Origin: Ruminococcus sp.
GTDB lineage: Bacteria; Bacillota; Clostridia; Oscillospirales; Ruminococcaceae
NCBI GenBank assembly: GCA_017519415.1
Contig: JAFWSI010000031.1
Location: 1-59,471, forward strand
Direction: 5' to 3'
DNA length: 59,471 nucleotides
The translations under genes were made by a program, and so were the position numbers. The notes beneath the pieces were generated by a model. It was not told the origin of the DNA and ran no database searches. It saw only the letters and a list, made by a program, of their open reading frames with translations. Positions 46,082-53,680 of this stretch are shown here, piece after piece (positions within the stretch are counted from its first letter, which is position 1; every line of letters begins with the position of its first letter).

Positions 46082-46828
46082 ATGAAAAAGCTATTGACTT
46101 CCGTTTTAACGGCAGCCCTCACCCTCTCGGCTCTGACATCAATGACAGGCGTTTCCGCTGTTGTGAACTTTCCCGATATTCGCGGAGTCATAGTGACAGC
46201 CTCGGAGCTGTCCCTTGATGTGTATGCGGAGCAAGTAGCTCAGCTTGTGAATGAACGGAGAGCGCAGAACGGCGTCGCACCTCTCAAGGTACTCCCGCTT
46301 CTGAACAAGGCTGCTAATATCCGTGCCAAGGAAATAGTGAGTAACTTCGATCATGTGCGGCCAAACGGCAAGCGCGGTTATACAGCCATAGAGGACGCAG
46401 GACTCAAATGGAACGCCTGTGCGGAGAATATCGCTGCGGGCTATCCTACTCCCGAAGCTGTGGTACAGGGCTGGATGGATTCTGCGGGGCACAGGAAGAA
46501 TATGCTCAACCCGAATTATCAGTACATAGGCGTGGGAGTATGCTATTCGGGAGGCTATTATTACTGGACTCAGCTTTTCCTCGGCTCCTCCAGTGAGTAT
46601 ACCGACGCTGCTCTGCCAAAGATATACGGCGATATAAACGGTGATAATATGATAGACGCCGTTGACGCTTCCTTTGCGCTTTCCGATTACGCTCTTGCTT
46701 CGTCGGGAAAGGCTACGAAAATGGACAGCAATCAGAAGAAGCTGGCTGACCTTAACGGCGACGGCTACGTTGACGCTGTGGACGCTTCCATAATACTCAA
46801 TATTTATGCAAAGAACTCTACAAAATAG
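46082..46828 (+). CDS. Secreted CAP-domain protein with C-terminal dockerin
   Basis: A 248-residue protein. A signal peptide (1-26) is followed by a CAP/SCP domain of the YkwD type (about 48-165): LVNERRAQNGVAPLKV, FDHVRPNGKR, AENIAAGY, WMDSAGHRKNML and YIGVGV. The pair of His residues (FDHV, GHRKN) and Glu (AEN) that usually line the CAP cavity are present. The dockerin (about 178-245) has GDINGDNMIDAVDAS and ADLNGDGYVDAVDAS loops, close to those of the two transglutaminase-like proteins. Role unknown; CAP proteins often bind lipids or have surface functions. Confidence 0.9.
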   Translation: MKKLLTSVLTAALTLSALTSMTGVSAVVNFPDIRGVIVTASELSLDVYAEQVAQLVNERRAQNGVAPLKVLPLLNKAANIRAKEIVSNFDHVRPNGKRGYTAIEDAGLKWNACAENIAAGYPTPEAVVQGWMDSAGHRKNMLNPNYQYIGVGVCYSGGYYYWTQLFLGSSSEYTDAALPKIYGDINGDNMIDAVDASFALSDYALASSGKATKMDSNQKKLADLNGDGYVDAVDASIILNIYAKNSTK

Positions 46829-46843
46829 CATATAAAAAATCAG

Positions 46844-46878
46844 ACCGCACTCCGGAGGATACCGAAGTGCGGTTTTTT
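46844..46878 (+). terminator. Terminator of the CAP-dockerin gene
   Basis: ACCGCACT-C-CGG and CCG-A-AGTGCGGT stem followed by six T. Read from the other strand it also closes the pyruvate formate-lyase operon. Confidence 0.85.
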
Positions 46879-46898: not shown

Positions 46899-47138
46899 TC
46901 AGAGACTCGAATGGAAGGTACGGGAAATAACGTCGTCCTGCTGCTCCTTGGTGAGCTTTACGAAGTTTACCGCGTAGCCCGATACCCTTACGGTGAGCTG
47001 AGGGTACTTCTCGGGGTGAGCCTGAGCGTCAAGGAGAGTTTCACGGGTGAAAACGTTTACGTTGAGGTGGTGTCCGCCCTTTTCCACGTAGCCGTCAAGT
47101 AATTCAATGAGGTTGTCTACCTGTTTCTGGTTATCCAT
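46899..47138 (-). CDS. Stand-alone glycyl-radical domain of pyruvate formate-lyase
   Basis: A 79-residue protein, start ATG 47138 after GGGAGGA. It corresponds to the C-terminal end of [23 protein letters not shown] (24-43), [17 protein letters not shown] with the radical Gly54 in RVSGYAV, and [14 protein letters not shown]. In E. coli the same segment is fused to the enzyme; GrcA (YfiD) is a spare part of 127 residues with its own N-terminal region. Here the catalytic gene upstream ends before this domain, so this product should be required, not a spare. It is the third gene of the operon, 136 bases after the 72-residue ORF. The gene symbol is left blank because it is not a GrcA orthologue in length or N-terminus. 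Confidence 0.9.
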
Positions 47139-47150
47139 AATTATCCTCCC

Positions 47151-47198
47151 TGCAGCGTGACGCTGCACCCTATCCGCGTTGCCGCTTGCTTCGCTCGC
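47151..47198 (-). repeat. Dispersed repeat, copy 1 (in the pfl operon)
   Basis: On the minus strand: GAGCGA, then GCGGCAACGCGG, AGGGTGCAGCGTCAC and CTGCA. The 35-base core matches the plus-strand copy at 53646-53680 at 32 positions. It contains the palindrome TGCAGCGT-ACGCTGCA and abuts the SD of the glycyl-radical gene. Confidence 0.7.
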
Positions 47199-47274
47199 TA
47201 ACATTTTATTTAGCTGCTGCTTGTATATCGCTTACGGTGGTTTGATAGGGAAATACGGTTTATGCTTATGATGA

Positions 47275-47493
47275 TTAAAATTCGTCGTCCTCGGGTTCAA
47301 GCTCCGTGGGCTGACAGCAGGCACCCTTTCTGCCCGGGCAGTCGGTGCTCTTCACAGTGCTGACCCTGAGTCCGGAGCCGCTGTCGTCGGCGACTATATC
47401 CACATGGCCGCTGCCCTGTTCCATGAGCCTGTCGATAAGGTCGGCAAGCTCTGCGGGGTCGGAGGGAGCGGTAAGCTTATCGGGATCTGTCAT
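47275..47493 (-). CDS. 72-residue Cys-containing protein within the split pfl operon
   Basis: Start ATG 47493 lies one base after the pflB stop with AGAGGAGA overlapping the end of pflB, so translation is coupled. The protein is acidic. Residues 16-33 (LADLIDRLMEQGSGHVDI) weakly resemble the start of the glycyl-radical subunit ([19 protein letters not shown]). A Cys group, DCPGRKGACC (C52, C59, C60), follows. There is no RVSGYAV motif. I do not recognise a family. It might be a degenerate copy of the domain, an assembly factor, or an unrelated insertion. Confidence 0.65.
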   Translation of the reverse strand: MTDPDKLTAPSDPAELADLIDRLMEQGSGHVDIVADDSGSGLRVSTVKSTDCPGRKGACCQPTELEPEDDEF

Positions 47494-47494
47494 A

Positions 47495-49597
47495 TCATTC
47501 TCCTCTGAGACTGTCAAGATCAAGGTCTCCCGCGAATATCTCCATGTCCTTGCCGAGTGCGTCCGGGATAACGGAGAAGGTATTGGAGATACCGTCCTGT
47601 GCATATCTGAATGGCAGCTTTGCAACAGACGAGAGCGAAGCTACTGCACCGTGAGTGTCCCTGCCGTGCATGGGATTTGCTCCGGGAGCAAGGGGCTCGC
47701 CCTGCTTGCGTCCGTCGGGGGTGTTGCCTGTCTTCTTTCCGTATACCACGTTTGAGGTGATGGTGAGGATAGACATTGTCGGCACGCTGTCGCGGTAGGT
47801 GTGGTGCTTCCTTATGCAGTCCATAAATCTGCGGACTACTTCAACTGCAAGCTGGTCAACTCTGTCATCGTTGTTGCCGTATTTCGGGAAGTCTCCCTCT
47901 ATCTCATAGTCAACTACCACGTTCCTTGCAATGCCTGTAACATTGCCTGCCCTGTCCTTTATCTCGATGTCCCTGCGGACAGGCTTAACCTTTGCGTATT
48001 TTATAGCCGAGAGAGAGTCTGCCACTACGGAAAGTCCTGCGATACCCGTTGCAAAGTAGCGCTTTACGTCCCTGTCGTGGAGTGCCATCTGCAATCTCTC
48101 GTAGCTGTACTTGTCGTGCATATAGTGGATAACGTTGAGGGTGTTTACATAAAGTCCTGCCAGCCACTCCATCATATCCATGTACTTCTGCCATACATCG
48201 CCGAAGTCGAGGTACTCCGTGTCAACAGGTCTGTACTTTGGGCCTACCTGAAGTCCGAGACGCTCGTCCACGCCGCCGTTTATTGCATAGAGCAGACACT
48301 TTGCAAGGTTTGCCCTTGCGCCGAAGAACTGCATTTCCTTGCCTACCACCATAGATGATACGCAGCAGGCGATAGCGTAGTCGTCCCCGTGTACCACTCT
48401 CATCATGTCGTCGTTCTCGTACTGGATTGATGAGGTCTTTATGGAGATCTTTGCGCAGTATTCCTTGAACTTCCTCGGCAGCTTCCTTGACCAGAGCACC
48501 GTCATGTTGGGCTCGGGAGCAGTTCCAAGGTTCTCCAGTGTGTGGAGATAGCGGAAGCTGTTCTTTGTAACGAGGGGGTGGCCGTCAACGTCCACGCCGC
48601 CTATGGATTCGGTTATCCATGTGGGGTCTCCCGAAAAGAGCTCGTTGTACTCGGGAGTACGTGCGAACTTGACTATACGGAGCTTCATTATGAAGTGGTC
48701 GATGAGCTCCTGCGCCTCCTCCTCGGTGAGGATACCGCGGTCAAGATCGCGCTGTATATATATATCGAGGAAGGTGGAGGTGCGTCCGAGGGACATGGCT
48801 GCGCCGTTCTGCTCCTTGACTGCTGCAAGGTAGCCGAAGTAGAGCCACTGTATGGCTTCCTTTGCGTTTGCGGCGGGCTTTGATATATCGAAGCCGTATA
48901 TGCTGCCCAGTTCCCTGAGATCCTCGAGAGCGCGTACCTGCTCTGCAAGCTCCTCACGGAGTCGGATATTCTTTGAGGTCATTCTCACCAGGGAGGTATC
49001 TATCTGATGCTTTTTATCCTTTATGAGCCTGTCGATACCGTAGAGGGCAACGCGGCGGTAATCGCCTATGATACGTCCTCTGCCGTAGGCGTCGGGAAGT
49101 CCCGTCAGTATGGCGGAGTGACGTGCAAGTCTCATTTCGGGAGTGTATGCGTCGAATACGCCCTGATTATGAGTCTTTCTGTATTTCGTGAATATCTCCA
49201 CGACCTTGGGATCCACCTCATAGCCGTATTCCTTGCAGGCCTGCTGAGCCATACGGATACCGCCGAAAGGCTGTAATGCGCGTTTGAAGGGCTTGTCTGT
49301 CTGGAGACCTACGATCTTTTCAAGCTCCCTGTCGATGTAGCCTGCACCGTGGGAGGTTATGGTGGAGATGATCTCCGTGTCCATGTCCAGGACTCCGCCT
49401 GCCTCACGCTCCTGCCTTGAAAGCTCCATCACCTGTTCCCAGAGCTTCCTTGTAGCCTCGGTGGGGCCTGCCAAAAAGCTTTCGTCGCCTTCGTAAAGAG
49501 TATAGTTCTTTTTTATGAAGTCCCTGACGTTCACGGAAGAAGAGCTCCAGCGGCCTTCATTGAAGCCGTCCCATTCATTTGCCCATGAATTGACCAT
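47495..49597 (-). CDS. pflB: Pyruvate formate-lyase catalytic subunit lacking the glycyl-radical domain
   Basis: Converts pyruvate and CoA to acetyl-CoA and formate under anaerobic conditions. It is 700 residues (typical PFL is about 750-760). The active-site pair C411-C412 lies in [50 protein letters not shown] and [15 protein letters not shown] are typical. It stops after [18 protein letters not shown], where E. coli PFL continues through the glycyl-radical segment. That segment is encoded separately at 46899-47138. The stop is followed by different sequence rather than a frameshifted continuation. No activating enzyme (pflA) is in the window. SD AAAGGAG. Confidence 0.93.
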
Positions 49598-49632: not shown

Positions 49633-49661
49633 ATATTACCACGTTGCGTCGATTATGTCAA
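49633..49661 (-). promoter_or_regulatory. Promoter of the pfl operon
   Basis: On the minus strand TTGACA (49661-49656), 17 bp, TAATAT (49638-49633). Confidence 0.7.
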
Positions 49662-53631: not shown

Positions 53632-53680
53632 GAGCGAGTTTACGGGCGGCAACGCGGCAAGGGTGCAGCGTCACACTGCA
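53632..53680 (+). repeat. Dispersed repeat, copy 2 (before putP)
   Basis: GAGCGA followed by the 35-base core GCGGCAACGCGG..AGGGTGCAGCGTCAC.CTGCA, matching the minus-strand copy at 47151-47185 at 32 of 35 core positions. It lies just upstream of the putP promoter. Confidence 0.7.

Follow-up and report, generated by a model that had tools for sequence, protein, structure and literature searches.

The window analyzed here is a stretch of 59,471 nucleotides from a draft genome near Ruminococcus (G000, 74.9% complete). On its minus strand, from 49597 down to 46899, it carries three genes that encode, in this order, a pyruvate formate-lyase (PFL) catalytic subunit, a middle protein of 72 amino acids, and a Gly-radical subunit of 79 amino acids (Table 1). 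The ATG of the middle gene lies 1 base past the stop codon of the catalytic gene, and the radical gene begins with an ATG at 47138 behind the Shine-Dalgarno (SD) sequence GGGAGG, the mechanical open reading frame (ORF) at this place being 101 aa long, with its start further upstream. The original prediction had described the locus as two genes: its division between catalytic and radical parts stands, but the 72-aa middle gene and its Cys element had been missed.

Table 1. Features of the split PFL locus and its surroundings in the window.
Feature	Position	Strand	Evidence
PFL catalytic subunit, 700 aa, without Gly-radical loop	47495..49597	-	TIGR01255, 1109 bits (curated cut-off 994.2); PF02901, E 2e-218
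Catalytic vicinal Cys C411-C412 (E. coli C418-C419 by alignment)	48362..48367	-	Invariant in 18/18 rows of the catalytic alignment
Middle protein, 72 aa	47275..47493	-	Helix/strand N-terminus as in the Gly-radical domain; C-terminal Cys element C52, C59, P62; without radical-Gly loop
Gly-radical subunit (NCBIfam GrcA3), 79 aa	46899..47138	-	NF038360, 167.1 bits versus cut-off 158
Codon of predicted radical glycine Gly54 (RVSGYAV)	46977..46979	-	Invariant in 18/18 rows
Promoter-like site TTGACA-17-TAATAT, upstream of the catalytic gene	49633..49661	-	Consensus match only; 6 found versus 2.7 expected
Intrinsic-terminator-like hairpin, 3′ of the radical-subunit gene	46844..46873	-	12 pairs, T tail; consensus match only; 2 found versus 2.8 expected
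Perfect inverted repeat GCAGCGTGACGCTGC, just upstream of the radical-gene SD	47152..47166	.	Possible mRNA hairpin; 1 exact match, 0 expected

Among the promoter-like matches on the minus strand, the one upstream of the catalytic gene is the best (10/12), and a second, weaker one (9/12) lies within the catalytic gene at 48025-47998; the counts of promoter- and terminator-like matches in the window are close to those in shuffled sequence. The inverted repeat has a second copy with 1 mismatch at 53665-53679 and could be a dispersed repeat. The leader of the radical gene folds only weakly better than shuffles (z -1.59), and the hairpin signal is weak. On the plus strand, positions 46082-46828 encode a putative secreted protein of CAP/SCP type, recognized by eye, with a dockerin-like repeat at the C-terminus as in cellulosome-forming ruminococci.

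The catalytic chain covers positions 1-665 of the 744 of TIGR01255, and positions 662-744 are matched by the separate 79-aa protein. Likewise, only positions 2-50 of the 106 of Pfam Gly_radical (PF01228) were matched on the catalytic ORF, the Gly-radical ORF covering positions 48-106. The catalytic chain thereby differs from the one-chain PFL described by TIGR01255 in the absence of the radical glycine, as had been predicted for a 700-residue gene that keeps the Cys411-Cys412 pair and lacks the region around this residue. The chain ends 21 residues after the point where the conserved ALGK begins (residue 674 in E. coli, Met included). In most split catalytic subunits, ALGK is followed by an acidic stretch that, by eye, commonly reads [VI]F.GD[LI][DE] and is not found in the full-length PFL linkers compared.

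The second part of the same claim, a radical region encoded by a separate 79-residue gene with its own SD, also holds, given the start codon and SD described above and a score beyond the GrcA3 cut-off. Mean column identity in the radical-subunit alignment is 84% over 18 rows. The small family is already named, being listed in NCBIfam as the "autonomous glycyl radical cofactor" GrcA3. The pflA gene of the window genome is located elsewhere than the PFL genes (C22:108884-109573; 302 bits versus a cut-off of 231.75), and of the 99 loci with enough sequence, 61 have a pflA-like motif no more than 1.5 kb downstream from the radical gene. At one locus (L175), the catalytic and radical-subunit genes are separated by a pflA-like gene, and the Cys element is absent.

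A profile scan with the radical-subunit alignment, covering one genome per species for 84,980 species, returned at least 587 confirmed relatives, and the best 80 were taken further. In 80 of these 80 best named loci (of at least 587), a short frame of its own encodes the radical domain, a figure that gives no estimate of frequency because the query was built from split-type sequences and the ranking favors split forms. The best 80 include the isolates Ruminococcus albus KH2T6, R. bicirculans 80/3, Lancefieldella rimae ATCC 49626, Olsenella uli, and O. phocaeensis, as well as metagenome-assembled genomes labeled Lachnospiraceae, Gastranaerophilales, Spirochaetales, and Acholeplasmatales. Even sampling of the order to which the window belongs gave 21 of 345 genomes above the GrcA3 cut-off; the open frames measure 81-152 aa in every one of the 21, and the sub-cut-off matches listed were mostly in frames of at least 740 aa, with some shorter (e.g., 79, 313, 480, and 562 aa). 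The TIGR01255 cut-off was passed by 89 of 299 genomes in a sample of the phylum, where the matches over the cut-off stop near position 665 in G000 and G752 and run to 740-744 in the others. The split PFL is thus a minority form in the phylum sample. The G752 locus, whose sequences were used in none of the profile models, shows the order catalytic gene, middle gene, radical-subunit gene, and a pflA-like gene (named by eye).

These distributions bear on whether the two chains are really separate. A sequencing error, one of the ways in which the original prediction could have failed, is excluded, since the same gene separation is found in relatives, namely, in the 80 best named loci and in G752. 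More generally, sequencing or assembly error, recoding, or frameshifting that leaves the chains joined would fit the adjacency of the genes, and the catalytic and radical genes do share a frame in some relatives. We nonetheless regard this explanation as negligible: the frames are separate in all 80 best named loci, the catalytic and radical frames of the window differ, with 2459 bases between their starts and a whole gene in between, and eight genomes hold a second radical gene on another contig.

Selection on the locus was evaluated by computing dN/dS against four close relatives. The catalytic gene gave ratios of 0.04-0.05 (dS 1.1-2.3) and the middle gene, which evolves faster than its partners, 0.11-0.20 (dS 1.5-2.2, near saturation), both sets of ratios being rough because of the high dS. 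For the radical gene, values of 0.017 and 0.019 were obtained in two pairs, the synonymous sites being too diverged in the other two. These ratios suggest purifying selection on all three genes. A pseudogene reading was tested and is not supported.

The search for an intact PFL bears on what the small protein does. In the 74.9% complete genome of the window, PF01228 has no other match and TIGR01255 has no second one over the cut-off, the one extra PF02901 match being weak (18.6 bits, below the cut-off); the missing 25% could contain an intact PFL. The TIGR01255 search was extended to 59 split-bearing genomes (47 + 12, G000 included), of which 24, all among the 47, are rated at least 90% complete and the rest are less complete or unrated, genomes reached via named loci carrying no completeness rating. 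No full-length PFL was found in these 59 genomes, and no single match over the cut-off reaches beyond position 682. For pieces of the two genes that share a frame, the search sums the scores, and the sequences are separate ORFs (G530 included). Other glycyl radical enzymes in the split-bearing genomes reach at most 210 bits with TIGR01255, and three genomes (G324, G828, and G834) have the catalytic gene as fragments only.

An ordinary GrcA-type spare part, with the small gene repairing an intact PFL and the 700-aa gene a truncated paralogue, would fit the NCBIfam name "autonomous glycyl radical cofactor GrcA3", and a protein of this type from Ca. Mycoplasma girerdii is termed a replacement part in its description (PMC5476646). 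Set against the absence of any intact PFL from the 59 split-bearing genomes searched and the strong constraint on the catalytic gene, this explanation is very improbable. A full-length PFL elsewhere with decayed paralogues at this locus, a prospect that the original prediction had raised against itself, is likewise not supported in the genomes searched. The lack of a full-length PFL in the genomes searched, the separation in relatives, and the low dN/dS together make the small GrcA3 protein look like an obligate subunit and not an autonomous cofactor, in agreement with the earlier proposal that it is essential and not a GrcA-type spare.

The descent of the split was followed on trees of the catalytic sequences. 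On a first tree of 130 rows, from which a strict pattern left out eleven full-length loci and several split loci, the difference between split and full-length forms required 2 changes (shuffled mean, 30). It again required 2 (shuffled mean, 38) on a FastTree tree of 147 rows, which holds ten more full-length and seven more split rows, including three more no-tail rows, and represents 147 of 162 loci; the 15 loci outside it are the full-length L205 and others that are stand-alone radical genes or cut contigs. In the 147-row tree, the smallest clade with all 103 split rows contains just three full-length rows (L100-L102), and in an IQ-TREE tree of 45 rows, 32 split rows and L100-L102 form one clade with an SH-aLRT of 97. 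The simplest reading of these trees would be one old fission that spread across phyla, with one re-fusion in L100-L102; a split clade excluding these three rows is not rejected (p-AU 0.0625), and the trees favor re-fusion. An independent split in the no-tail lineage (L177, L183, L189, and L192) was also considered and set aside, as the trees place these rows inside the single split clade (L183 in the 130-row and 45-row trees, all four in the 147-row tree).

The middle protein has no match in Pfam or NCBIfam. In a sequence search of the PDB, its profile gave one match below 0.001, the designed protein 9ugr, the rest being weak and mostly troponin C, and the better matches cover the N-terminal helix region only. 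Its N-terminal 30 residues align with the radical subunit over 30 columns (hhalign P 93.5%; E 2.3e-7 for a single comparison), and C52, C59, and P62 do not vary across 16 rows. On account of this N-terminal likeness and these invariant residues, the middle protein looks like a modified docking part of the radical domain in which the radical loop has been swapped for a Cys element.

A counterpart of this element is found in cis, where the acidic stretch of the catalytic subunit runs on into a C-terminal paired-Cys tail, often like DCGNGACSSPTLFEGLD. Filtering the 116 split loci for catalytic and radical genes that adjoin each other left 103, the 13 dropped loci being nine stand-alone radical genes, three loci at contig edges (L165, L173, and L174), and L166, a locus with a Cys tail that the filter missed. 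Within the filtered set, 49 loci have only the cis Cys pair, 47 only the middle protein, none both, and 7 neither; two of these 7 (L122 and L138) have a middle gene in another frame. Two loci are counted twice in this set (L084/L150 and L094/L163), and the 101 distinct adjacent loci divide into 48 with the cis Cys pair, 48 with the middle protein, none with both, and 5 with neither. Because these five loci have neither form, a split PFL does not strictly depend on the Cys element.

The motif C.{1,9}C..P[TN] occurs in 34 of the 49 cis tails and in 46 of the 47 profile-found middle proteins, with the two doubled loci included in these counts and fewer than 0.1 matches expected after shuffling. 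The tail profile, moreover, scores at least 10 bits in 28 of the 47 middle proteins versus 1 of 940 shuffled sequences. The cis tails are variable in length and Cys spacing, and 15 of the 49 fall outside the full motif. On a FastTree tree with 93 labeled rows, tail and middle protein are exchanged in eight changes, and on the starred branches alone, the tail label changed at least three times. On this pattern, tail and middle protein have repeatedly taken each other's place.

Radical genes are also found apart from the three-gene arrangement. Eight genomes picked for a stand-alone radical gene all hold split PFL catalytic and radical pieces elsewhere as well, the second radical gene being on a different contig (L141, L146, L148, L154, L170, L171, L186, and L191), and G524, G530, and G531 have a second radical gene too. 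No oxygen-stress theme was seen among ten neighbor proteins of stand-alone radical genes at five loci. Crp-type regulator genes adjoin the stand-alone radical genes L148 and L191.

In the viral database IMG/VR, a short radical gene is present at 17 of the 20 best loci examined, 14 of them without a PFL catalytic piece in the stretch examined. The contigs are up to 333 kb long, and on two of them (L237 and L240, 230 and 333 kb) the stand-alone radical gene lies near nrdD and nrdG. An RNA ligase or tail-fiber attachment protein is encoded nearby at L237 and L245, and an exonuclease, a helicase, and thymidylate synthase at L233; the neighbors at L241 have no match, and neither capsid nor terminase was found among the neighbor proteins scanned at six IMG/VR loci. 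Viral-class contigs with a PFL catalytic piece near the radical gene were also observed (L236, L239, and L248); L236, where a riboflavin-transporter-like gene is next, is possibly host sequence. The stand-alone copies on viral-class contigs suggest that phages may provide their hosts with the fragile radical piece, for which Y06I of phage T4 is a known precedent.

PFL is a central fermentation enzyme, and the destruction of its radical domain by oxygen is a known weakness. Comparison of the sequences leads us to a reading that we consider highly probable, namely, that the locus encodes a heteromeric PFL made of a large subunit and a detachable radical subunit, which would be activated by PflA and could be exchanged after contact with oxygen, with a Cys element at the slot. 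The large subunit would hold the substrate site and the Cys-Cys pair, and the 79-residue subunit would contribute the Gly loop and the strand that completes the barrel. PflA would set the radical on the docked small subunit, whose loop would then come to lie beside Cys411-Cys412. Oxygen would cleave the small subunit only, and a fresh copy could be exchanged in. Across most of the lineage, a Cys element goes together with the lost tether, as a tail of the large subunit or, as in the window, on the middle protein. The sequences themselves show the split and its conservation, the lack of an intact PFL in the genomes searched, and the mutual exclusion of tail and middle protein; from them, we infer complex formation, activation in trans, exchange after oxygen damage, and the role of the Cys element. 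Repair by exchange of the radical subunit, a putative function, is plausible, and the second radical genes on other contigs and the copies on viral-class contigs agree with the idea.

Laboratory work offers parallels for such an enzyme. As reported in one study (PMC8683613), E. coli PFL 1-695 together with YfiD has wild-type activity once activated, but YfiD binding to this truncated form was undetectable by ITC and activation was 32-fold below that of cleaved PFL with YfiD; residues 696-733 were proposed by the authors as a recognition element. According to another report (PMC12338860), a PflB G734A strain makes formate when GrcA is present, which indicates that a radical provided in trans works in vivo. 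By the first of these accounts, a split PFL is able to work but seems to require help with its assembly.

The Cys element would act at the slot left empty by a departed radical subunit, where it could help to recognize this subunit and/or serve as a dithiol to shield or reduce the active-site cysteines. A role chiefly in docking or recognition, in place of E. coli PFL residues 696-733 and without redox function, is a real possibility, though somewhat short of probable: these residues are needed for YfiD binding (PMC8683613), the middle protein shows a likeness to the N-terminal portion of the radical domain, and the end PTL[FH][EDQ][GSA][LIM][DE] is shared by 27 of the 49 tails and 14 of the 47 middle proteins (0 expected). 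Against a pure docking role, the residues that never vary in the middle protein, apart from the start Met, are two Cys and one Pro, with no large surface, and five loci do without the element. Binding of a metal (Zn or Fe-S), as in other glycyl radical enzymes, would suit an element with at least two Cys, some of them in CxC, CxxC, or CC, but appears unlikely, as the spacing between successive Cys of the cis tails ranges from 0 to 6, unlike one fixed metal site, and neither Pfam nor NCBIfam gave a match for the middle protein. Other glycyl radical enzymes are known to have small subunits or Zn sites.

We also put forward, tentatively, that the element is a swinging dithiol arm, either the cis tail or the pseudo-radical-domain protein in trans, which would enter the slot and keep the catalytic Cys pair as thiols or return it to that state. 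The analogy is with class I ribonucleotide reductase, whose C-terminal CX4C tail in E. coli NrdA (ending in GCESGACKI) is a redox tail that re-reduces the active site. Like that enzyme, PFL works via active-site cysteines, and C..G[AGS]C is present in 24 of the 49 cis tails; in the split PFLs, the spacing varies, no homology with that tail is shown, and the window has CX6C on the middle protein. A dithiol arm, if true, would give a PFL with both an exchangeable radical and its own redox repair.

Neither a split PFL nor the middle protein was found described among the open-licence papers listed, which do not extend to subscription journals and bioRxiv. The original statement that no described case was known thus stands for the split PFL among these papers, but the small protein itself is already in NCBIfam. 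For the split-bearing gut and rumen anaerobes searched, the two-piece PFL is the only PFL found, and proteins annotated as GrcA3 "autonomous cofactors" are probably obligate subunits. The natural split makes the idea of exchange after damage directly testable and exposes a conserved small protein and a Cys element of putative function.

Compared with E. coli PflB, the TIGR01255 type, the PFL of the window has the same catalytic domain, Cys-Cys pair, radical loop RVSGYA, and PflA-type activase; it differs in that the radical domain of the single-chain enzyme is here a separate protein. A stand-alone radical domain is shared by GrcA/YfiD of E. coli, Y06I of phage T4, and GrcA3, and only YfiD and Y06I have been characterized so far according to PMC8683613. 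The same source describes YfiD as a spare for an intact PFL with a disordered N-terminal half, whereas the window protein is a bare domain encoded close to a truncated catalytic gene, with no intact PFL found. Truncated E. coli PFL 1-695 with YfiD (PMC8683613) is the laboratory counterpart of the natural split; it binds and is activated poorly, and most natural versions differ from it by adding a Cys tail or a middle protein.
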